Both the position numbers and the translations under genes were made by a program. The notes beneath the pieces were generated by a model that saw only the letters and a list, made by a program, of their open reading frames with translations, did not search any database and was not told the origin of the DNA. Source: Parahoeflea alexandrii (GTDB taxonomy: Bacteria; Pseudomonadota; Alphaproteobacteria; Rhizobiales; Rhizobiaceae). From it: a stretch of DNA of 64,000 nt. Positions 1,487 through 20,705 of this stretch are shown one piece after another. The stretch is taken from NCBI RefSeq assembly GCF_024105735.1, contig NZ_JAAAML010000001.1:682001-746000 (forward strand). The letters are read 5' to 3'. The stretch's first letter is position 1. Each line of letters opens with the position of its first letter.

Positions 1487-1576
1487 CCCAACGCAACCCT
1501 CGCCTGTAACCGATGAGATACGGCGGTGAGATGATTCGCGCTAAAGCGCGGATTCGATCCGCGGATAGGACAACTC

Positions 1577-2047
1577 ATGATGCTCAATACCGCCTCCCAA
1601 ATTCATTTCGACCAGGTTCATCGCCGGTTTCCGGAACAGTGCTGGGAGCACGTCGGCGTCACCAGCGGCGAAGTTGTGGATCTGCTTGGTTCCATTGTGC
1701 CTTTGGGGATCTGGCGGCTGGATATCGCGACGGGGCTGGTGTTCTGGTCCGAGGATGCGGCGCGTATCCATGGCATGGAGGCCACCAACGGGTCGGTCAG
1801 CCTGGCAAAGATACTGACCTGCTATCATCCGGAGGATGTGGCAGTGATTGAGGCATTGCTGGAATCGGCGACAACCCGGCGCAACGGCTTCCGATTCGTC
1901 ATGAGGGTGAAGGGGGGCTCCGGATCTTATCGACTGATTGCCGTAGCGGGCCGATACAGGGCTGACAATGACGGCGAATTGATCGGATACTGCCATGAGT
2001 ACCAGGATATGGTGCGCGCGGTGGTACTGGAAGGGGAGGCGCCGTGA
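1577..2047 (+). CDS. PAS-fold sensory protein coupled to a LuxR regulator
   Basis: A 156-residue cytoplasmic protein made almost entirely of one PAS_3-type fold. LLGSIVPLGIWRLDIATG (residues 37-54), a WSEDAARIHGM segment (57-67) and YHPEDV (83-88) match the pattern of PAS domains that read a small ligand or cofactor. There is no kinase, HTH or GGDEF output domain, so it must act through a partner. The stop codon overlaps the GTG start of the LuxR-type gene by four bases, which implies translational coupling and joint function. The likely model, inferred only, is that it modulates the downstream regulator. The ligand cannot be told from sequence. Confidence 0.75.
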   Translation: MMLNTASQIHFDQVHRRFPEQCWEHVGVTSGEVVDLLGSIVPLGIWRLDIATGLVFWSEDAARIHGMEATNGSVSLAKILTCYHPEDVAVIEALLESATTRRNGFRFVMRVKGGSGSYRLIAVAGRYRADNDGELIGYCHEYQDMVRAVVLEGEAP

Positions 2048-2784
2048 CTCTCTTTCAGAGCCCGGCTTATGCAGCCCAACCCTTCGGCGTCATCAAGGAT
2101 ATCCGCACCATCTTCGATGCCATGCAGGTGTTGCGCAAGGTTTGCCTGAGTTACGGGTTTCGCTATTTTTCTGTGATCACGTTGCCCTCGGCTGTCTCAG
2201 GTGATGACAGCTCGATTGCCAGCATGGCGACGATTTCAAGCTGGCCGCCGGAGCTGATCGCCGGTTACGACCGGCTGGGCCTCGCCAGGAACAGCCCGAT
2301 TCTGGACCAGTTGCGCAAGCGGATTACGCCGCTCGTGTTCGAGGTTGCGGATGTCAACAGCAACCGCCCCGGAGAGGAACCGCAGAACGCCAACGAGCTG
2401 TTCGGCCGTTTTGACCTGACCATGGGCGTGTACTTTCCGGTTCACGACAATCACGGCCTGCGTCACGCGGTGTCCTTCATGGGGGACCGTGATTCTCCTT
2501 CTGCCGAGGAGCTGTCGACGCTGTCGCTGTTTGCGACCATGTTGGTTGAGCAGATTTCCAAGATCAGCGTTGCCGATCATGCGGCGAAATCGGTTCTCAA
2601 TGACCGGGAAGTCGAAATCCTGAAATGGACTGCCGAAGGCAAGACCAGTCCCGAGATCGCCCGCATCACCGGGCTGTCGGAACATACGGTCAATCACTAC
2701 GCGACGATTGCGACCAAGAAGCTTGGCTGCTCCAACCGGACGCAGGCCGTGGTCTACGCGATCCGGCTCGGGTTGTTCAAGTAG
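2044..2784 (+). CDS. LuxR-family transcriptional regulator (autoinducer-binding-like domain, GerE HTH)
   Basis: A 246-residue protein starting at a GTG that overlaps the preceding PAS gene (GTGA). Residues about 20-165 align with the autoinducer-binding domain of the TraR/LuxR family. Residues about 185-245 form a GerE helix-turn-helix (LNDREVEILKWTAEGKTS, then SPEIARITGLSEHTVNHY). By my hand alignment to TraR the Trp57 equivalent is kept (W67), the Tyr61 position is Leu (L71) and the invariant ligand-binding Asp70 position is Ser (S84). No luxI-type synthase occurs in the window. It is therefore a LuxR solo that may not bind a classical acyl-homoserine lactone. Targets are unknown, and a dyad at 1465-1486 could be its own site. 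Confidence 0.88.
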   Translation: MTLFQSPAYAAQPFGVIKDIRTIFDAMQVLRKVCLSYGFRYFSVITLPSAVSGDDSSIASMATISSWPPELIAGYDRLGLARNSPILDQLRKRITPLVFEVADVNSNRPGEEPQNANELFGRFDLTMGVYFPVHDNHGLRHAVSFMGDRDSPSAEELSTLSLFATMLVEQISKISVADHAAKSVLNDREVEILKWTAEGKTSPEIARITGLSEHTVNHYATIATKKLGCSNRTQAVVYAIRLGLFK

Positions 2785-2805
2785 GGCGGCCGGGTTGGCC
2801 ATTCT

Positions 2806-4617
2806 CTAACTCGCGGTCAGCCTGCCTTGCGGCGGGATGATCTTGGTAAGGCCGCCGGCGACGATGCTGTCCAGTGCTTTGCGCACCGGATTGCTGGCCC
2901 GAAGCTGTTTCCAGGTGTCGAAGTCGCTGCGCTTCATCGGCTTTGAGAAGAAGAATCCCTGGATCTCATCGCAGCCGAGCTGCGCCGCCGCGGCCACTTG
3001 TCCCGGTGTTTCGGTACCCTCGACCACGACCCGGCATCCGAGATTCTTGCCGAGCTGGATGATGGCCCTGGACACTTCCCGCGCCTTGCCCTCGCTGTCG
3101 ATGCCGGAAACGAAGGAGCGGTCGACTTTCAGAATGTCGAACTTCAGGCCGGTGAGTTGTGCAAGGTTCGAGTATCCGGTCCCGAAATCATCAATCGCGA
3201 TGCGGACGCCAACCGCCCTCAGCGCCTTGATATGGTCTGAGACACTGACAATGTTGGTGTGAGCGATGGTTTCGGTGATCTCGATGGTGACGAGATCGGC
3301 GGGGCATTCATGTTCGTTGAGAATAGAGATGACCAGGTTCGAGAATTCGGTATTCCTGAATTGCTCGATTGAGACATTGATCGAGACTTCGGTCGACTGG
3401 CCGGCGCGGTGCCATTCGGCGCACTGGCAAATGGCTTCCTCCAGCACGATCAGGCCGATATCGTAGATAAGCCCGGTCATTTCGGCGATCTCGATGAAAT
3501 CGCCGGGTCCCACCAGGCCGCGCTCCGGGTGGTTGAACCGGACCAACGCCTCGACGCCTGTAACTGTCCAGTCACGAGCGCTGACCTTGGGCTGGTAATA
3601 GACCTCGAAGTGGCCATCGGCTATGGCGGTGCGAAGATCGCGCTCCATGGTTTCGCGCGACTTGATCACCTCGATCATCCAGCTTTGGAACAGGACGGTT
3701 CTCTCTGTTTCCTGCAGCGCGATCGAATTGTTGCAGGCAAGTGCTGCGTATTGTTTGACCTTGATGGCCGAGGCCGAATCCTGCGGGTATCGGGCTATGC
3801 CGATCGCGATGGAAGGATGGAACTGCCGTCCGTCGACCTTGACACCGCCGGCGAGTGCGGCGTGCAGCCGCCTCGCCACCGAGGCTATCCCGTCCGGGTC
3901 AGTGAGATCCGGAACGGACAGCACGAGTTCGGTTCCTCCAAACCGCGCGAGGACCGGTTCGCGGAGGGCGTCGTCCTCGCTGCCTGAACTGCGCAGGTTG
4001 TCACCATGGCTTTTGCAGGGCGAGGCCGCGACGAGCAGGCTGGCGATTGTCTTGAGAAGCTGGTCGGATGTCTCGTGGCCGAACCGGTCGTTGACCTTGC
4101 GGAGCTCAAGAACATCGATGAAAAACACCGAACCGCTCGCCGGGGCGCCATCGGCGCCGACGAGGCCGGTCTGTCGCTCGAGAAGGGTCTGCAACCGGTT
4201 CCGGTTTGGAAGGCCGGTGACAAGGTCATGATTGGCCAGTTCGCTTATCTCGGTCGTCGAAGCCTGCAAACGGGCGACCATCGTGCGCATGCTTGCGCCA
4301 AGCTCGCCGATTTCGCAGGAACAATCGACCGGCACCTTCACATTGAGATGACCCTCTGCGACCTTTCTGGCGACTTCGGTCAGCTTGCGGATCGGGCCGG
4401 TGAGCCGGCGGCTCATCAGTGCCATGAGGATCGCTGTCCCGATGAGACCGGCGATCGCCATGTTCATGTGCAGCGCGACGTCCGATACGCTGTGCTCGGA
4501 GAGAAACGGTATGGTGGCAAGGGCCAGGCAAATGCCTGCAAGCGCGATATAGATCGCCGTCAGCCTGAACCCCAGGGAATTGGTACCGATGCCGTAACGA
4601 ACTGCTTTCCAAGCCAT
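2806..4617 (-). CDS. Membrane HAMP-GGDEF(degenerate)-EAL protein, probable c-di-GMP phosphodiesterase
   Basis: From the ATG at 4617 this is a 603-residue inner-membrane protein; an in-frame GTG at 4662 is a less likely start. Two membrane segments (about residues 17-40 and 52-69) precede a HAMP linker (70-97), a GGDEF domain (about 125-310) and an EAL domain (about 325-575). The GGDEF signature is altered to GGTEL (227-231), so cyclase activity is unlikely. The EAL domain keeps EAL (356-358), the INVS Asn, ITE, DDFGTGYSNL (476-485), KVDRSF and VVEGTET (531-537). It should therefore hydrolyse c-di-GMP, with the first domain perhaps sensing GTP. It is convergent with the luxR gene and divergent from dnaG. 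Confidence 0.9.
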   Translation of the reverse strand: MAWKAVRYGIGTNSLGFRLTAIYIALAGICLALATIPFLSEHSVSDVALHMNMAIAGLIGTAILMALMSRRLTGPIRKLTEVARKVAEGHLNVKVPVDCSCEIGELGASMRTMVARLQASTTEISELANHDLVTGLPNRNRLQTLLERQTGLVGADGAPASGSVFFIDVLELRKVNDRFGHETSDQLLKTIASLLVAASPCKSHGDNLRSSGSEDDALREPVLARFGGTELVLSVPDLTDPDGIASVARRLHAALAGGVKVDGRQFHPSIAIGIARYPQDSASAIKVKQYAALACNNSIALQETERTVLFQSWMIEVIKSRETMERDLRTAIADGHFEVYYQPKVSARDWTVTGVEALVRFNHPERGLVGPGDFIEIAEMTGLIYDIGLIVLEEAICQCAEWHRAGQSTEVSINVSIEQFRNTEFSNLVISILNEHECPADLVTIEITETIAHTNIVSVSDHIKALRAVGVRIAIDDFGTGYSNLAQLTGLKFDILKVDRSFVSGIDSEGKAREVSRAIIQLGKNLGCRVVVEGTETPGQVAAAAQLGCDEIQGFFFSKPMKRSDFDTWKQLRASNPVRKALDSIVAGGLTKIIPPQGRLTAS

Positions 4618-4974
4618 AGACGCCGCCCCGAGGCTCAAATCCGGCAAACCGCCGGCCCGCACTCATGTGAAGTTACCCTGAACATGCCGGTTCTCGCGGC
4701 TCTGCAATGGAGGGCGGGCTCATGACCGCTGTTCTCTTTCTCATTGCCTCGGATAATATTTAAGACCAAATTATTTATTGGTGTTTTCTAATATGCGTAT
4801 AATTTTAGGCATCGGTGCATTTTTTACCGGCCAAGGGCATTGAAGTCTTCCGGTGGCTCACCGGTGTGCATAACGGGGAGTGAGGCGCCAAGGCCTTTGC
4901 CAGCGGTGCCTGGCGTGCCTATATAGGCAAGATCTTCACTCAGACCCACTGCTTGCGCCGGAGGCGCGCCGATA
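4618..4974. other. Intergenic region between the EAL protein and dnaG
   Basis: About 350 bases between divergent genes. An AT-rich stretch at roughly 4740-4830 is the probable promoter zone for one or both genes. I see no gene, tRNA or clear hairpin here. Confidence 0.4.
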
Positions 4975-6996
4975 TTGCGGTTTTCACCGTCCTTTCTCGA
5001 CGATATCCGCGAACGCGTTCCGATCTCGGACGTGATTGGCAGGCATGTGACGTGGGACCGGAAGAAAACCAACACCTCGCGTGGTGACTGGTGGGCCTGC
5101 TGTCCGTTCCATGGCGAAAAATCCCCGAGTTTTCACTGCGAGGACCGCAAGGGCCGCTATCATTGTTTCGGCTGCGGCGTTTCGGGGGATCATTTCAAGT
5201 TTCTCACCGAGCTCGAAAGCCTGAATTTCCCAGAAGCGGTGCAGCGGGTGGCGGACATGGCGGGCATTCCGATGCCGGTGCAGGATCCGCAGGAGGCACG
5301 GCGCGAGCGCCAGCGCGCCAGCCTCGAGGATGTCATGGAAATGGCGGCCTCTTTCTTCGAAAACCAGCTGCAGGGACCACAGGGCGCCAAGGCGAGGGCC
5401 TATTTGCGCGACCGCGGGCTGTCGGGGCGCACCATCGCCGCCTTCCGCCTCGGTTTCGGCCCTGACAGCCGCAGTGCGCTCAAGGAGCACCTGGCCTCGC
5501 GCGGCGTCGACAAGGAGCAGATCGAGGCCTGCGGCCTGGTGGTGCACGGGCCCGAGATCGCCGTCTCCTATGACCGCTTCCGCGACCGGATCATGTTTCC
5601 GATCCTGTCGGCGCGCGAACGGGTGATCGCCTTTGGCGGACGCGCGCTCTCGCCCGGCGCGCCTGCCAAGTATCTCAATTCCAACGAGACCGAGCTCTTC
5701 CACAAGGGCAACGTGCTTTACAACTATGCCCGCGCCCGCCGCGCCTGCGGACCGGACGGTACGCTGGTGGTGGTCGAGGGCTACATGGACGTCATTGCGC
5801 TGGCGCAGGCGGGCATCGACAATGTGGTGGCGCCGCTGGGCACGGCGCTGGGTGAAAACCAGCTCAAGCTGCTCTGGCGGGTGACGCCGCAACCGGTGCT
5901 GTGCTTCGACGGCGACGAGGCCGGACAACGGGCGGCTAACCGGACGGTTGATCTGGCGCTGCCGCTGATCGCGCCGGGCCGCTCGCTTCGGATAGCGGTG
6001 CTGCCGCCGGGCAAGGATCCCGACGACCTTGTCCGTGATGACGGGCGGGAACCGTTTGACCAGGTGATTGGCTCGGCGCGGCCACTGGCCGATGTGGTCT
6101 GGTCGCGCGAAGCCGGCAGCGGCGTGTTCGAGACACCGGAGAGCCGGGCCGAGCTCGAGGCGAAACTCAGGCAGACCACGGGGCAGATCGCCGATGAAAG
6201 TCTGCGCCGCCACTACCAGCAGGACATGCGCGACCGGATGCGGGCCTTCTTCGGCGGCGGGACGGGCTATGGCAATCGCGAGCCGGGCAAGGCCGGCGGC
6301 GGGTCTTACGGCCGAAGCGGCGGTGGATCCTACGGGCGTGGCGGCGGATCCTATGGCGGCGGCGGGCGACCGGGCGAGGGGCGTGGCGGCGGTCTGCAGG
6401 CGGGCCGCACCGTGGCGGTTTCCGAGCGGCTGACGCAATCGGGTCTGGTGCGCGGCCATGGCGCGATGCCGTCGCTGCGCGAAACGGTGCTGGTGATGAC
6501 GGTGGCCAACCACCCGCAGATGCTGCACGACGAGTTCGATGAACTGGCGGCGCTCGAATTTGACGACAAGAACCTGATGCGGGTCTGGCAGGTGATGCTT
6601 GACGCGGCCTCGGTCGGCGGCCGGTTTGACCGCGAGCGGCTGTTTGAGGCGCTTGAAGCCGGGGGGCAGGCCGAGTTCATTGCCCGGCTCGAAGCACAGA
6701 TCCGCAATGCGCGGATCTGGACGGCGACGGTGGAGGCCGCGGCCGAGGATGCGCGCGAGGGCTATCAGCAGGCGCTGGCGCTGCACAAGCGCACCCGTGC
6801 GCTCAAATGGCAGAAGGCGGAGCTGCAGCGCGATATTGCAGAGGCCACGGAAGCTGGCGACGGGGATGCCATCCCCGGCCTGATGCTGGCGCTGCAGGAA
6901 GTCCAGCTGGAGGTGGCGCGGCTCGAGAACCAGGAAGCCATCATCGACGGCTTCGGTGTTCTTTCAGGCCGGGTCAAGGGTGCGCGCGGCGGCTGA
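4975..6996 (+). CDS. dnaG: DNA primase
   Basis: DnaG makes the RNA primers for chromosome replication and works with the DnaB helicase. The 673-residue product starts at TTG, with GGAGG ten to fifteen bases upstream; the MRFSPSFLDDIRERVPIS start matches rhizobial DnaG. The CHC2 zinc finger uses C43, H46, C64 and C67. The core RNA polymerase/Toprim domain shows VEGYMD (267-272), FDGDEAG (311-317) and KDPDD (347-351). Residues about 427-473 form an unusual glycine-rich linker with repeated GGGSYGR units before the C-terminal helicase-binding region. It sits upstream of rpoD in the same direction, the classical macromolecular-synthesis order, but 432 bases apart. Confidence 0.97.
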   Translation: MRFSPSFLDDIRERVPISDVIGRHVTWDRKKTNTSRGDWWACCPFHGEKSPSFHCEDRKGRYHCFGCGVSGDHFKFLTELESLNFPEAVQRVADMAGIPMPVQDPQEARRERQRASLEDVMEMAASFFENQLQGPQGAKARAYLRDRGLSGRTIAAFRLGFGPDSRSALKEHLASRGVDKEQIEACGLVVHGPEIAVSYDRFRDRIMFPILSARERVIAFGGRALSPGAPAKYLNSNETELFHKGNVLYNYARARRACGPDGTLVVVEGYMDVIALAQAGIDNVVAPLGTALGENQLKLLWRVTPQPVLCFDGDEAGQRAANRTVDLALPLIAPGRSLRIAVLPPGKDPDDLVRDDGREPFDQVIGSARPLADVVWSREAGSGVFETPESRAELEAKLRQTTGQIADESLRRHYQQDMRDRMRAFFGGGTGYGNREPGKAGGGSYGRSGGGSYGRGGGSYGGGGRPGEGRGGGLQAGRTVAVSERLTQSGLVRGHGAMPSLRETVLVMTVANHPQMLHDEFDELAALEFDDKNLMRVWQVMLDAASVGGRFDRERLFEALEAGGQAEFIARLEAQIRNARIWTATVEAAAEDAREGYQQALALHKRTRALKWQKAELQRDIAEATEAGDGDAIPGLMLALQEVQLEVARLENQEAIIDGFGVLSGRVKGARGG

Positions 6997-7428
6997 CCCC
7001 CGGGCCGGTCTGTCGCAATTCGTTTCCGGCGCACTTGTGGAATCAAACCGGGCTCCTAAATAGGGTTATCCGGCGGTGAAACCGAAAATGCAGGCAAAAT
7101 GGCGTTAATCGCCGGATCCAGGCGCTTTTTGCCCGTAAAGCCTTGACGGATAGGTTTTTTGTGGGAATCACCTGTTGGATCAAAAACACGCGGGAACATG
7201 CGCGCCGGGCGGCGTGCGATGACGTCCTGCTTTCCGGGGTTCGGATGACCGCAGAGCCAACGACCGAAGAGTTCAATGATCGGCATGGTTAATGGGGAAT
7301 TAAGCATGCATACGCCACAACAATCCGGATGATTCGCACATGCTGTCTGCCCATCGGGGCGGCAGCGCGCGCCTCACGGCAGGCGCAGACGATGTCAACC
7401 GAATGAAATCCGGGGAAAGTGACTGCCC
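6997..7428 (+). promoter_or_regulatory. dnaG-rpoD intergenic region, probable rpoD promoter zone
   Basis: A 432-base gap without a convincing gene. A possible promoter is CTTGTG (7034-7039), 16 bases, then CTAAAT (7056-7061), close to the alphaproteobacterial CTTGAC/CTATAT pattern. TTGACG at 7143 is a second -35 candidate without a good -10. The length suggests rpoD has its own regulated promoters, separate from dnaG. Confidence 0.35.
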
Positions 7429-9474
<2,046 letters not shown>

Positions 9475-15547: not shown

Positions 15548-15619
15548 GGCATGCCGCCCGACGCGCGGCGTCGCCGCTTTCGCGGCGCGGATCTTTTCAT
15601 GAACACAGGATGAATGGCC

Positions 15620-15666
15620 GGTTCCGCTTCGGTTCAGGCGGGTGGGACTAGTGTGGGGTCAATCGA
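15620..15666 (+). promoter_or_regulatory. Duplicated upstream element, copy 1
   Basis: These 47 bases upstream of the first small secreted-protein gene match 39 of 47 positions of 16305-16351 upstream of its paralogue. The core is TTCGGTTCAGG and TAGTGT, ending in TCAATCGA. Their retention in both copies suggests a promoter or operator. Confidence 0.55.
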
Positions 15667-15763
15667 TAGGGACACCCGGCGAACGGGACATCCGATCGGG
15701 ACAAGTTCGAAGTCATGGACACCCACTCAAGGCATCAAACGCCGCCACATCTGGAGAACAGTC

Positions 15764-16135
15764 ATGAACAGCTTCATCCGCAATGCACTCACCGCCCTCG
15801 TTGTCGCCACCGCCGGGCTTGCCGCTTCCGCTCCTGCCGCCACTGCGGGCGGTGTCGGATTCGAATTTTCGTTCGGTGGTCCCGGCGGCGGTGTCGTCAT
15901 CCGCGACTACGATCGCCGCGGCGGCTGGGACCGGTTCGAGGGGCACCGCGGTCATCGCGATGTCTGCCGTCCGCACCGCGCCGTGCAGAAGGCCCGCCAC
16001 ATGGGCATCCGCCGCGCCGATGTCGTCCGCGCCGGTCACCGCCGCGTCGTCGTTGAGGGCTTCCGCCATCACCGCCCGGTCCGTGTGGTCTTCGCCAACC
16101 AGCGCCATTGCCCGGTGATCAAGGTTCGCCGCTAA
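15764..16135 (+). CDS. Small secreted Gly/His/Arg-rich protein, paralogue 1
   Basis: A 123-residue protein from the ATG 15764. A signal peptide (about residues 1-26, ending in an AxA-type site around PAATAGG) is followed by a Gly-rich strand GGVGFEFSFGGPGGGVVIRD. The basic, His-rich C-terminal half has a repeat-like VVRAGHRRVVVEGFRHHRP. Two Cys (in DVCRP and RHCPV) may form a disulfide in the periplasm. It is a close paralogue of the gene at 16418-16804, including its upstream element. No enzyme motif is seen. Similar small exported proteins are common in Rhizobiales and of unknown function. Confidence 0.82.
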   Translation: MNSFIRNALTALVVATAGLAASAPAATAGGVGFEFSFGGPGGGVVIRDYDRRGGWDRFEGHRGHRDVCRPHRAVQKARHMGIRRADVVRAGHRRVVVEGFRHHRPVRVVFANQRHCPVIKVRR

Positions 16136-16351: not shown

Positions 16352-16417
16352 ACGGGCAGCCGGTCGAGACAGACACCACCAGCCCCAGGCGCCATGTCGC
16401 CCCCAGGAGATACCGTC

Positions 16418-16804
16418 ATGAACCGTTTCATCCGTTCCACGTTTGCCGCTCTCGTTGTCGCCACCGCCGGCATTGCCGCCTCGGCCGCTTCCGCCAATGC
16501 AGGCGGCATCGGTTTCGAATTTTCCATCGGCGGACCGGGCGGCGGTATTGCCGTTCGCGATCTTGACCGTCGCGGCAGCCGCGATCATGACCGGCGTGGC
16601 GGTCGGGACGGTTTCGGCGGCTACCGCGATGTCTGCCGGCCCGACATCGCTGTCGACAAGGCCCGTGACATGGGCGTCCGCCGCGCCGATGTGGTCCGCG
16701 CCGGTGACCGCCGGGTTGTCGTCGAGGGCTTCCGCCATCACCGTCCGGTGCGGGTGGTTTTCGCCAACGAGCGCAACTGCCCGGTGATCGGCTTCCGCCG
16801 CTAA
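16418..16804 (+). CDS. Small secreted Gly/Arg-rich protein, paralogue 2
   Basis: A 128-residue exported protein and the tandem paralogue of 15764-16135. Shared features are the signal peptide, GGIGFEFSIGGPGGGIAVRD, two Cys in equivalent places (DVCRP and RNCPV) and the VVRAGDRRVVVEGFRHHRP block. The middle is richer in Asp/Arg (DRRGSRDHDRRGGRD) than in paralogue 1. AGGAGATACCGTC precedes the ATG at 16418. The two genes have separate terminators and separate copies of the upstream element, so they are individually transcribed. Function is unknown. Confidence 0.82.
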   Translation: MNRFIRSTFAALVVATAGIAASAASANAGGIGFEFSIGGPGGGIAVRDLDRRGSRDHDRRGGRDGFGGYRDVCRPDIAVDKARDMGVRRADVVRAGDRRVVVEGFRHHRPVRVVFANERNCPVIGFRR

Positions 16805-17691: not shown

Positions 17692-18069
17692 GAAAAATCT
17701 CCGATCTGGTACCTGATGCATGTTGCGTTCGAATCTACCATTTGTCCGATGACGTCCATGCATCAATTCATAGGGTTGCAACGTGCATTGCGCATCCGGC
17801 TGGAAGCGCAAGCGCTGTGATGTCCCGACAGCGAAAGTCATGGCGAGCGAATGTGGACGCATTGCGGCGGCGCTCTGCCGATGGGGAAGGCGGCGCGCCG
17901 TCCATGCCCGGTCCTCCCTGCGGCCGCTTGAGGATGTCGTGCCGGCACGTCTTGTCGCCGCATTTGATTTGGGCTAAACCGCCAGCATCCGGACGGCGCA
18001 TCCGGTCCTGCAAACGGCGGCTTGCTCCGCCCGCAACAGGGTCGATCCAAGGCGCCGCACCCGCAAGGA
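17692..18069. other. Intergenic region between the SIMPL gene and the tRNA
   Basis: Nearly 380 bases hold no gene that I can support. The SIMPL promoter (minus strand) and the tRNA promoter (plus strand) must lie here, but neither is distinct by eye. Confidence 0.35.
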
Positions 18070-18145
18070 AGGCCTGTAGCTCAACGGTTAGAGCCGGCGG
18101 CTCATAACCGCTTGGTTGGGGGTTCGAATCCCTCCAGGCCTACCA
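18070..18145 (+). tRNA. tRNA with CAU anticodon, probably tRNA-Ile2 (lysidine-modified)
   Basis: Acceptor stem AGGCCTG (18070-18076) pairs with CAGGCCT (18135-18141), the discriminator is A and CCA is encoded. The anticodon loop CTCATAA gives CAT at 18103-18105. The T arm is GGGGG-TTCGAAT-CCCTC. The D-arm and anticodon-arm sequence (GGTTAGAGC, then GGCTCATAACCGCTTGGTT) resembles E. coli ileX rather than elongator or initiator Met tRNA, so decoding of AUA after TilS modification is likely. An AT-rich accessory segment follows immediately, as at tRNA integration sites. Confidence 0.9.
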
Positions 18146-18540
18146 AGTTTTGTCCATCGCTGTAGTTTGTCACCCGGTCCTATAGGAAGGCGGGAAATGG
18201 TGGGATTGCGCGGGAAATTGCGGGAATTCTTGTGAATACAGTGGTTTGTGGGAGTGGTTATAGAGTGAGCTGTGGGTGGGATTTGCTGTCTGGTTGGTCC
18301 CGGGGGCGGGCTCGTATGTTCGGGGCGCGATTTCAAGATTCTTTCAAATCGGCTTTGAGGGCGGTTTGAGATTTCCAAGAATGCAAATAGAATCTATGTC
18401 TCCATGACTTTGAAGGCCTGGTTTTTCAGTCGGCTGCTTGAATTCAAGCGATGGCAAACTCCAAACGGGACTGAGAAGGTGACTTCATAATCCGTTTAAT
18501 CCGTGCTCATGGTCAGACGTGAACTGTGTAAGTTGGCAAA

Positions 18541-18645
18541 TCATGGTGTTAGCTTTTCCAGGTTCGCGATGCGTCGGTCCATGACGTGGTCCTGCAAGTT
18601 GGAAGCGCCGACTGCGCCATAGAGCATAGCGTTCTTAAACATCAT
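18541..18645 (-). pseudogene. Possible 34-codon gene fragment
   Basis: The minus strand reads MMFKNAMLYGAVGASNLQDH and ends DRRIANLEKLTP before TGA. The ending has the look of a short helical or coiled-coil tail. I cannot match it to a family. It may be chance, or the remnant of an island gene. Confidence 0.2.
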
Positions 18646-18810
18646 CGTCTCATAAATGGAGGGCTATGTTCCCGGAAAACTCCAAAGTCCGGCGGTCCAG
18701 CATTCGGGGCAGGCTCAACACCCTTGGAAGTTCCTGTTCGAGGCGATCCAAAGACGGGGAACACTTCAACCCGATTTTGCAGATTCTGGAGAATGCCGAT
18801 TTGTTGCAAG

Positions 18811-18840
18811 TTGACATAAGTATTTTTTTGCCCAACTATT
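18811..18840 (+). promoter_or_regulatory. Candidate promoter of the two-gene island operon
   Basis: A perfect TTGACA (18811-18816) is followed after 18-19 bases by ACTATT/CTATTA (18835-18841) in a T-rich setting. It lies about 30 bases before the first gene's ribosome site. Confidence 0.45.
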
Positions 18841-18869
18841 ATTGCGTTTCAATAATTGGAGATTGTAGC

Positions 18870-19124
18870 ATGGATGACGCAGACATAGTTGGCACCTCAG
18901 ATGGTAAAAAATTCACATTCGACCAAGCCGAAATTGAAGAGCTACAGAAAATATTTGATGCTCAAGAGAATAGTGATGGCGACAAAGGGCGAAAAGACTA
19001 TTGTTGTCGATGGCATGACGGAAGTAAGAGGGCGGTTCGTGCGAGTAATTCAGTCAGTGCAATGTTGAAGTGTCAAAAGCATAAGCCGGGTAAGCCCGTA
19101 AGTGTATCACGAGGAAATTGCTAA
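18870..19124 (+). CDS. Small Cys-containing island protein, unknown
   Basis: An 84-residue product from the ATG 18870, preceded by TTGGAGATTGTAGC. The N-terminal half is acidic (KFTFDQAEIEELQKIFDAQE, residues 14-33) and probably helical. The C-terminal half is basic with four Cys: C45-C46 in DYCCRW, C68 and the C-terminal C84. No signal peptide or membrane segment is visible. Codon use is AT-rich: the line from 18901 has only 20 G/C in 60 bases. It ends 16 bases before the next gene, so the two form an operon. I recognise no family. It could be a second precursor, a metal-binding protein or an accessory to the putative peptide product. Confidence 0.6.
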   Translation: MDDADIVGTSDGKKFTFDQAEIEELQKIFDAQENSDGDKGRKDYCCRWHDGSKRAVRASNSVSAMLKCQKHKPGKPVSVSRGNC

Positions 19125-19140
19125 GAGTGGGGATATTTAC

Positions 19141-19509
19141 ATGTTAGCATCAGTAGATCTAATCGTAAGAAATAGTGCACCTGGTTTCAAAAAATTTGAT
19201 TTGTCAGTAGCCAAGGAAATTATAGACGAACTTGCTGACGCAGAAAAAAGGGAGGCGTTCAAAAAAGACCCGCAGTCTTATATGATTAGCAATTTGATTT
19301 CTGAAGGACAGGAGGTTCCTGATGGTTTCCATGTCCATTGGTTAGATGGCAATATGCTCGTTCCTACCGAAGACGATAAGGACGAAGTTGCGACACGCCT
19401 CGTATTTCAAATGTCTCCCGGGAAAGACCCTATTCTCATGGAGTCAAATGGTGTCGTCGCAAAGGGTGGATGTACCCTATGCTTATTATGCCTAATCATC
19501 TTGTTTTAG
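19141..19509 (+). CDS. Putative RiPP precursor: NHLP-like leader, Gly-Gly site, Cys-rich hydrophobic core
   Basis: A 122-residue protein from the ATG 19141 with GTGGGGA seven bases upstream. Residues about 22-92 resemble the nitrile-hydratase-alpha-like leader peptides (NHLP) of RiPPs. Helical EIIDELADAEKREAFKKDP (26-44) is followed by EGQEVPDGFHVHW (55-67) and LVP (73-75), in the family order DP, G, LP-G-V-V, LVP. A linker leads to AKGG (107-110), a double-glycine cleavage motif. The protein ends in the 12-residue core CTLCLLCLIILF with Cys at 111, 114 and 117. I infer a peptide precursor cleaved after Gly110. No YcaO, LanM, radical SAM or peptidase-transporter gene is in the window. It could instead be a standalone leader-like protein with a membrane tail. 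Confidence 0.6.
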   Translation: MLASVDLIVRNSAPGFKKFDLSVAKEIIDELADAEKREAFKKDPQSYMISNLISEGQEVPDGFHVHWLDGNMLVPTEDDKDEVATRLVFQMSPGKDPILMESNGVVAKGGCTLCLLCLIILF

Positions 19510-19661
19510 GTGTCATCTGTGATGTACATGGCTGAATAACTCCGAGTTTTCTCGCCCCTCGGTCCTCGCTTTCGGCTGTAGTTCGAACTCGACGTGAGAC
19601 AGCATCCAGTTCCATATATCCATCTTATGCGATGGCTGCGGCGCCCATGTCCCAAACCCCT

Positions 19662-20705
19662 TCACCCCCTCCGCCGCCATTCCCCGGGCGTCATGCCGTG
19701 GCGGGTGCGGAAGGTGCGGGTGAAGTGGGAGGGGTCGGTGAAGCCGGCCTCGATGGCGATGGTGGCGAGCGGCAGATGCGCGGAGCCGGGGTGGCGCAGC
19801 ATGCGGGTTGCGGCGTTCAGGCGCTGGTTGATCAGGTACGTGCCGAAACTGTCCTCGTCACCTGAAAACAGGCGATGGATGTAGCGTTCCGACAGTCCGG
19901 CCTCGGCGGCGCAGGCCGCAACCGAATAGCCCGGCGTGGTGCAGCGGGCGCGGATGATGCGCTTGATTCTGAGCAAGTGCGCCGCACTGCGGGGGCTGTC
20001 GTCGGGCCGGGCGCTTTTCCAGGTGGTGGGTGAGCGGCCGGGCAGACTGTCCGGACCGGACACCGGGCGGCCTGCCAGCTCCACCAGCGAGGCAATCAGC
20101 ATCTGCAGGTCTTCAAGATCGGTATGCGCGCCCGCGGCAGCCGTTTCCACCAGCGTCTGCATGGCTTCCGCGATCAGCCGGCCATAGACCGGGTGGCGTG
20201 ACACAAGCTCCGGCGTTCTGCCGGGTCCGCCTGCCGTGCCCGTCGCCATGGCCTGCTTGGGCAGCATCAGAGAGGCAACCTTCAGCTCGGGAAAGCGTTC
20301 GTGGTGCAGGCTGAAAACGCGGGCGCTGTCGAACAGGCCGACATCGCCGGGGCCGAGCAGGATGTCGGCACCGTTCTGCGCGATCCGGCACTCGCCGGAA
20401 ATCTGCAGATTGAGATAGTAGCAATCCTCGGCGGAGGCGGCGATCTCGGCGGCCCCCTTCTGCACCAGGTGCGACTGCGCGGTGACGAGGTTGAGGGTGC
20501 CCGCGCCGATGCCATAGGCATAATGGGTGGCGCGGAAGCTGTGCCGGAGCGACCGGTCGAGCTCGGGCCTGAGCGGCATGAAGGCCGAGCAGATGCCCTC
20601 GCGGTAGTAGTCGAAAGCGTCGCTGGCGGCGACTTCCGAGGTGCGCCAGATGCGCGGCCCGGCGGGCTGTGCAGTCTCAGACCATGTCTGTTCACCCTGG
20701 TCCAT
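19662..20705 (-). CDS. AraC-family transcriptional regulator
   Basis: A 347-residue DNA-binding regulator. Residues about 30-210 form an AraC-binding-domain-like sensor. Residues about 240-347 hold the double helix-turn-helix, with AACAAEAGLSERYIHRLFSG and, in the second motif, LATIAIEAGFTDPSHFTRTF followed by HGMTPGEWRR. It is divergent from the alpha/beta hydrolase gene with 60 bases between starts, so it probably controls that gene. The inducer is unknown. The product is full length, and its GC-rich codon use contrasts with the AT-rich island immediately to its left. Confidence 0.92.
   Translation of the reverse strand: MDQGEQTWSETAQPAGPRIWRTSEVAASDAFDYYREGICSAFMPLRPELDRSLRHSFRATHYAYGIGAGTLNLVTAQSHLVQKGAAEIAASAEDCYYLNLQISGECRIAQNGADILLGPGDVGLFDSARVFSLHHERFPELKVASLMLPKQAMATGTAGGPGRTPELVSRHPVYGRLIAEAMQTLVETAAAGAHTDLEDLQMLIASLVELAGRPVSGPDSLPGRSPTTWKSARPDDSPRSAAHLLRIKRIIRARCTTPGYSVAACAAEAGLSERYIHRLFSGDEDSFGTYLINQRLNAATRMLRHPGSAHLPLATIAIEAGFTDPSHFTRTFRTRHGMTPGEWRRRG

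Follow-up and report, generated by a model that had tools for sequence, protein, structure and literature searches.

The locus raises the question whether a small gene, P0001, encodes the precursor of a RiPP with an NHLP-type leader, as a sequence-only reading had proposed, or a protein of another kind. P0001 occupies 19141-19509 on the forward strand of the window, i.e. of the whole stretch of 64,000 nucleotides that was analysed. It runs from an ATG start to a TAG stop and encodes 122 amino acids; a GTG in frame at 19102 is a possible alternative start that would add 13 residues. By sequence and predicted structure, residues 1-110 (19141-19470, forward strand) can be set apart as a putative leader, whose last two residues are the Gly-Gly at 109-110 (19465-19470, forward strand) that would form the leader/core boundary. 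The sequence and pattern scans then leave residues 111-122, CTLCLLCLIILF (19471-19506, forward strand), as a putative core. The open reading frame, the leader stretches that had been quoted, the Gly-Gly and the terminal CTLCLLCLIILF were all found where the sequence-only reading had placed them.

Base and codon composition show that P0001 is a real coding frame. The gene is AT-rich, as had been noted, with a GC content of 42% (most kilobases of the window have 58-70%), and GC at codon positions 1, 2 and 3 is 0.53, 0.33 and 0.41, respectively. The coding score of its frame is 7.7, a value reached by none of 1000 shuffles, and the other five frames score between -4.0 and -12.3. The length of the ORF alone is no evidence for a gene, since 127 of 1000 simulated islets contained an ORF that started with ATG and had 122 codons or more. 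A search of the window for DNA encoding the pattern Gly-Gly-Cys-x-[Leu/Phe]-Cys-[Leu/Phe]-[Leu/Phe]-Cys gave a single occurrence, against none in 100 shuffles. In the 12 residues that follow Gly109-Gly110 there are three Cys and one Thr, so that the purely hydrophobic setting described for the core holds apart from one residue, Thr112. Leu-x4-Leu at -12 to -7 before the Gly-Gly is absent from P0001, which has Leu99 at -12 and Gly104 at -7; Pro93 and Pro97 are present.

P0001 lies in an AT-rich insert of about 1.5 kb (18146-19650), delimited by composition and by comparison with a relative, G008. The left border is the 3' end of a tRNA-Met (CAT) gene (18070-18145, forward strand), and the right neighbour is an AraC-type regulator gene (19662-20705, reverse strand) recognised by Pfam scan and comparison with relatives. 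In G008, a draft genome that is 75% complete, the matches to window positions 18001-18145 and to 19651 onwards (with the AraC-type gene) are only 12 bp apart, and the insert is thus absent at the same site in this one relative. The DNA behind the tRNA-Met gene varies among members of the genus: several relatives have other DNA there, five of nine fetched stretches were AT-rich with little in common with the insert, and in a comparison of 28 loci nothing but short pieces around 18161-18215 recurred, in G015. The site is possibly an insertion hot spot. Two scars were recognised within the insert. The left one (18672-18776, forward strand) is similar to DNA that, in two annotated records, directly follows IS3-family transposase genes. 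The right one (19530-19613, reverse strand) resembles the 3' end of IS3-family transposase DNA; it overlaps the end of such a transposase gene in one annotated record, and in another it reads by eye as the C-terminus of an IS3-family transposase.

Besides the scars, two ORFs only were found in the insert, P0001 and an upstream ORF, P0002 (18870-19124, forward strand, 84 aa), and both sit within the 753 bp that separate the scars. P0002 ends 16 bases upstream of the P0001 start. Its front half is acidic, and its basic tail bears four Cys, at 45, 46, 68 and 84, the last being the final residue. Its coding status is uncertain, its coding score being reached by 55 of 1000 shuffles, and it may be another precursor, a partner or no gene at all. 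No relatives of P0002 were found in plasmids (E 5 or worse) or in IMG/VR. The 397 genomes of the order gave seven other places, six of which appear by eye to be unrelated or out-of-frame peptides and one of which (L140) was not recovered again. The weak matches of P0002 that were set aside are those to phospholipase A2 (E 0.005) and DUF61 (E 0.02) in Pfam, neither of which reaches its cut-off, and to JAB in PADLOC (E 0.05). Outside the insert, two adjacent and clearly similar small proteins at 15614-16135 and 16394-16804 (forward strand) share the ending VVVEGFRHHRPVRVVFAN and have signal-peptide-like stretches; neither has a Pfam match.

The position of the right scar, which begins 20 bp beyond the P0001 stop codon, and an insert that holds nothing but two ORFs and scars are what would be expected if P0001 were a functionless, decayed gene of other origin, cut or altered by IS3 insertion. 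However, the stop precedes the recognised scar and the frame retains a clear coding signature, and we consider this the least likely of the readings weighed here.

We found no relatives of P0001 in 61 genomes or in 397 genomes of the order, the own genome being included in both sets. The order-wide search returned nine other places at E 0.004-0.05, which were not taken as relatives because chance in 397 genomes would give as many at E ≤ 0.05. A seed-pattern scan of 84,980 species gave 74 stretches and a scan of IMG/VR gave five, and none of either was confirmed as a relative. Searches by tblastn returned two plasmid records and one phage record, all at E 0.3 or worse, and there was no match in PHROGs. 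Scans for the core pattern gave 44 stretches in genome contigs and 2 + 48 in viral contigs (L047 being in both viral lists). Of the 94 places, all of which were translated, 32 had 20 or more codons ahead of the motif and no more than 40 behind it, and by eye none of these looked like a relative. Ten viral contigs (L093, L094, L103, L109, L110, L113, L117, L121, L123 and L136) have in common a short protein whose sequence follows PAQVGPC-x2-CG-x-PTHRYG-x-GGCPLCVVC, exactly or nearly so; it fits the core pattern and is unrelated to P0001. Weak matches of P0001 to an NCBIfam collagenase (E 0.07) and to PADLOC PtuB (E 0.02) were also set aside. A literature search of limited scope found no description of an orphan precursor like P0001.

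In Pfam and NCBIfam profile searches P0001 matched none of the RiPP families, TIGR03793 (NHLP) included, at E ≤ 10, where the filters of HMMER discard most matches above about 0.1 in spite of that limit. It was likewise unmatched by TIGR03795 (NHLP-Burk) in NCBIfam and by the Nif11 profiles PF07862 and TIGR03798 in Pfam and NCBIfam. The lack of a hit to the NHLP and Nif11 profiles is an outcome that had been named beforehand as speaking against the precursor reading. The only TIGR03793 matches in the own genome were a weak one and one to what appears to be the alpha subunit of a nitrile hydratase; the model matched at E ≤ 1e-4 in 58 of 398 genomes of the phylum, none above cut-off, and most of the matches that were translated look like nitrile hydratases. 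Six NHLP-type comparison proteins from five loci matched the model, five at E 1e-7 or better and one at 9e-4, a comparison that is partly circular in that four of the six came from loci picked with the same model, and two of the six reach its cut-off.

Alignment by hhalign gave values that depended on the profile. Against a profile dominated by nitrile hydratases P0001 scored 16.1 (reached by 3 of 200 shuffles). A profile made from 17 segments of NHLP type gave 17.2, which 2 of 150 shuffles and 1 of 150 decoys reached. The joint NHLP and nitrile-hydratase profile gave 21.45 with p 0.0021, below cut-offs. That score was exceeded in none of 1,419 controls (0/500 shuffles, 0/419 decoys and 0/500 slices of long ORFs), nor in a smaller set of 150 shuffles and 150 decoys. 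With match columns only, the score was 20.25 and 1 of 200 column shuffles lay above it. Adding LigA to the joint profile again gave 21.45, with p 0.0011. Pairwise comparison to two single NHLP-type proteins was not significant, the scores being reached by 430 and 113 of 1000 shuffles. What stands of the proposed NHLP-type leader is therefore a modest likeness, at 21.45, to the family named beforehand, and what does not is membership, with no TIGR03793 match and no Leu-x4-Leu.

A second family came into view through a weak Pfam LigA match of residues 30-56 (E 0.25, 11.9 bits against a cut-off of 25.3) and through LigA and SonA being among the structural matches given below, and a LigA/borosin-binding profile was built for these reasons. 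It consists of 12 plasmid proteins (L183-L194), retrieved by means of a hand-made LigA-like consensus, and a stretch of SonA. Residues 24-57 of P0001 (19210-19311, forward strand), a helix-DP-helix stretch that in profile comparison resembles both LigA/borosin-binding and NHLP/nitrile-hydratase domains, scored 26.5 against it with p 1.7e-4, a p value that overstates the match, since this profile was singled out only afterwards, LigA having come top among 24,736 families in Pfam. None of 1,219 controls (300 shuffles, 419 decoys and 500 slices) and none of 200 column-shuffled profiles reached 26.5. These scores suggest a kinship of the P0001 helices with NHLP-type and LigA/borosin-binding domains. 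The LigA profile and the NHLP/nitrile-hydratase profile also match each other over the helix-DP-helix stretch (hhalign 31, 80%). In this comparison 6 of 200, and then 1 of 200, column-shuffled profiles scored 128-135, and 1 of 200 gave a likewise extreme score for P0001 against the mixed profile. At least one of these is repeatable alone and is not a self-alignment; the remaining match-column shuffles reach at most 19.7 and 13.8. The extreme scores are presumably a program artefact. Judged by this profile match, NHLP and borosin leader types may share an origin, a side result that can be tested independently of P0001.

AlphaFold2 without alignment modelled three helices followed by strands, both for the whole protein and for residues 17-100, at low confidence (pLDDT 58 and 69, respectively). 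The first strand differs between the models: the predicted strands are residues 71-77 and 84-90 in the trimmed model (19351-19410, forward strand) and 64-68 and 85-91 in the full-length model, which adds a strand at the N-terminus, another at 98-102 and a helix at 113-120. The proteusin leader as published consists of alpha1-3 and beta1-2, then a stretch rich in Pro and, ahead of the Gly-Gly, a short helix that bears Leu-x4-Leu (PMC10858898). With the full-length model, Foldseek placed the proteusin precursor 8TB1 first of 350,542 chains at E 0.73 and probability 0.11; with the trimmed model, 8TB1 was not among the best 50 of 208 matches. VIA-align placed 8TB1 second for both models (full-length: Z 2.5, 58 aligned, rmsd 3.4; trimmed: Z 4.2, 65 aligned, rmsd 4.3), with unrelated chains first. 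For the trimmed model it listed further down the proteusin 9CJX (Z 2.6), LigA 1BOU_A (Z 2.8) and SonA 7LTS_D (Z 2.5), Z values of a size also seen among unrelated folds. The order of three helices and then strands is thus what structure prediction of the leader contributes, with low pLDDT and a weak 8TB1 match to be set against it.

The LigA profile score and the presence of LigA and SonA among the VIA-align matches also fit a split-borosin-like system, in which a leader of the LigA/borosin-binding type would offer the tail to a discrete alpha-N-methyltransferase encoded elsewhere and the Gly-Gly would be incidental. In SonA the core (residues 62-71) lies behind the binding domain and is methylated at residues 63 and 65 (PMC8429565). 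However, the Pfam LigA match stays at less than half its cut-off in bits, and the SonA domain is a five-helix bundle of 53 residues whereas P0001 is predicted to have strands and a long linker. Furthermore, the borosin methyltransferases described in PMC8429565 adjoin their precursors, and no methylase family was recognised among the 40 window proteins. We therefore hold such a system to be distinctly unlikely. A combined form, a precursor of a kind so far undescribed in which a RiPP leader joins the LigA/borosin-binding helix-DP-helix to proteusin strands, the borosin and proteusin leaders would be one clan, and a short hydrophobic core with Cys at every third position would be modified in trans by an unlinked enzyme, seems to us very unlikely.

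The tail, too, may be read in another way. Reading the nine distant order-wide matches on the correct strand showed that seven are crotonases (L004, L005, L006, L007, L009, L010 and L012), identified by eye from six-frame reading and by mutual similarity and aligned in one register up to the P0001 tail; L008 and L011 are not crotonases. P0001 may accordingly be a truncated, diverged remnant of a crotonase-type gene. Its tail would then correspond to the strand-turn-helix signature of the enzyme, with the elements Pro-Ile ... Asn-Gly ... Gly-Gly-Cys-x-Leu-x-Leu-x-Cys, and would be truncated close to the right IS3 scar, which starts 20 bp past the stop. By hhalign, residues 86-117 (19396-19491, forward strand) resemble the enoyl-CoA-hydratase (crotonase) signature. 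A profile mainly of crotonases selected by P0001 gave 54.3 (p 3.2e-8) and, with HMMER, 2e-11, which are circular because P0001 itself had selected most of the sequences. Four crotonases met by chance in other loci gave 29.1 (0/300 shuffles). An independent profile, made of eight solved chains and three loci (11 crotonases in all, selected without P0001), gave 30.9 with p 3.1e-4, a score reached by none of 800 controls (300 shuffles and 500 slices).

With this score of 30.9 the fit to the crotonase signature is at least as good as the fits to the leader profiles. The tail alone scored 24.7 against the crotonase profile (0/300 shuffled tails), and the strand at 98-102 and helix at 113-120 of the full-length model would follow the order of the motif. 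The Gly-Gly-Cys of P0001 can thus be read as a crotonase signature without any RiPP, a signature that would produce the same letters as the precursor-like anatomy of Gly-Gly and Cys tail. The crotonase match is about as strong as the LigA match, and both were found after the fact. On the other hand, the signal is that of the tail: the front alone scored 11.4, and 3 of 200 sequences still reached the full score after their front had been shuffled. Nine matches in 397 genomes are no excess over chance, and crotonases are an abundant family. P0001 has no match to a crotonase-type family in Pfam, and there was no crotonase among the fold-search matches listed by Foldseek and VIA-align. A crotonase remnant is in our view rather unlikely.

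A precursor would call for a modifying enzyme, and the sequence-only reading had held that the modifying enzymes are elsewhere or missing. This was borne out in the window, where no RiPP enzyme, C39 transporter or methylase family was recognised by Pfam among the 40 proteins (11 of them unmatched at E 1e-5). The own genome (4.9 Mb, 100% complete by estimate) had no match to YcaO, C39 peptidase or TIGR04085 (SPASM radical SAM) in searches whose controls were positive. DUF4135 (LanM) also had no match there, but that search was positive in no control genome either. The genome has a single MNIO enzyme, about 386 kb from P0001. It lies in an operon at about 313-316 kb of the contig G000:C1 (L177), together with a DUF2282 precursor, DUF2063 and a DoxX-like gene just below cut-off, an arrangement that we take to be of the bufferin type. 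Since this enzyme is paired with its own DUF2282 precursor, it was set aside as a partner of P0001. An absent neighbour enzyme does not refute the RiPP reading, because precursors far from their enzymes, and species without identified enzymes, are mentioned by Haft et al. (PMC2887384).

The lack of a curated RiPP profile, of a partner enzyme and of any homologue in the above searches is equally what one would see if P0001 were a lineage-specific small protein outside the RiPPs, with a folded cytoplasmic domain and a short Cys tail that would seek the membrane or bind metal, and possibly serving the mobile element as an accessory. Mobile inserts often carry small orphan genes, and this general point adds to its appeal. 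Such a protein would, however, leave unexplained both the Gly-Gly directly before the Cys-rich tail and the likeness of the helices to leader-type domains, and the P0001 tail is short for a membrane span. We regard this explanation as possible but doubtful.

Weighing these, we tentatively prefer to see P0001 as an orphan, possibly relic, RiPP-type precursor, and we would put this at somewhat under an even chance. Its precursor role is putative, and two other readings, as a small protein of unrelated kind or as a fragment of an enzyme, come close behind. The leader, about 110 residues folded into three helices and then strands, would serve to dock a modifying enzyme, which would act on the hydrophobic three-cysteine tail of 12 residues; a protease would then cleave after the Gly-Gly and the product would be exported. 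With no partner in sight, such a precursor is most likely either left over from, or a passenger of, a cassette since lost, or else it is modified by an unlinked enzyme of a kind other than those covered by the searches. The earlier proposal survives in its broad form, as an orphan that looks like a precursor and whose partners are missing or encoded elsewhere; in its narrow form, membership of the NHLP family, it fails. If P0001 is a working precursor, the range of RiPP leaders is wider than the curated profiles, and divergent precursors with no enzyme nearby would seem to escape mining that relies on known leader families. If it is a relic, the two small ORFs, the IS3 scars and the tRNA gene site show how such pieces move. 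If it is an enzyme fragment, it serves as a warning that a crotonase signature can mimic a Gly-Gly-cleaved Cys core.

Among known systems, bufferins (a DUF2282 precursor with an MNIO enzyme) are linked to P0001 by the one such operon in the same genome, and MNIO enzymes are reportedly able to act on Cys (PMC12452194). The bufferin precursor of this genome has a signal-peptide-like start and adjoins its enzyme, whereas P0001 has neither. Crotonases share with residues 86-117 the strand-turn-helix with Asn-Gly and Gly-Gly-Cys; unlike them, P0001 ends in mid-domain, has a front half with no independent similarity and lacks the Pfam match. SonA and LigA (PF07746; PDB 7LTS, 1BOU) resemble P0001 in the profile of residues 24-57 and in a short hydrophobic C-terminal tail, but the SonA domain is a five-helix bundle where the P0001 models have strands, P0001 remains below the Pfam cut-off, and the methyltransferase of a split borosin is lacking among the 40 window proteins.

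Proteusin/NHLP precursors (TIGR03793; MprE7, PDB 8TB1) have in common with P0001 a long leader, an order of helices and then strands that is predicted for P0001, a Gly-Gly before a Cys-containing tail, and a weak profile and fold similarity. Unlike P0001, they match TIGR03793 and have Leu-x4-Leu at -12 to -7, and at the loci L178 and L182 a YcaO or C39 transporter gene is adjacent. At the latter locus (Azospirillum sp. B510 pAB510a, 1554-7546), HlyD and C39-ABC transporter genes adjoin eight frames whose NHLP-type leaders are nearly identical and whose tails differ. NHLP-Burk (TIGR03795) differs from P0001 in that P0001 lacks the TIGR03795 match, P0002 is not a paralogue of P0001 and no cyclodehydratase was found for P0001. 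With a leader of 108 and a suffix of 11 residues it is nevertheless near to the 110 + 12 of P0001, and it shares with it the absence of a standard cleavage motif and two small adjacent genes, as far as described in PMC2887384. By our own reading, the two also have in common extra residues ahead of a Pro pair.
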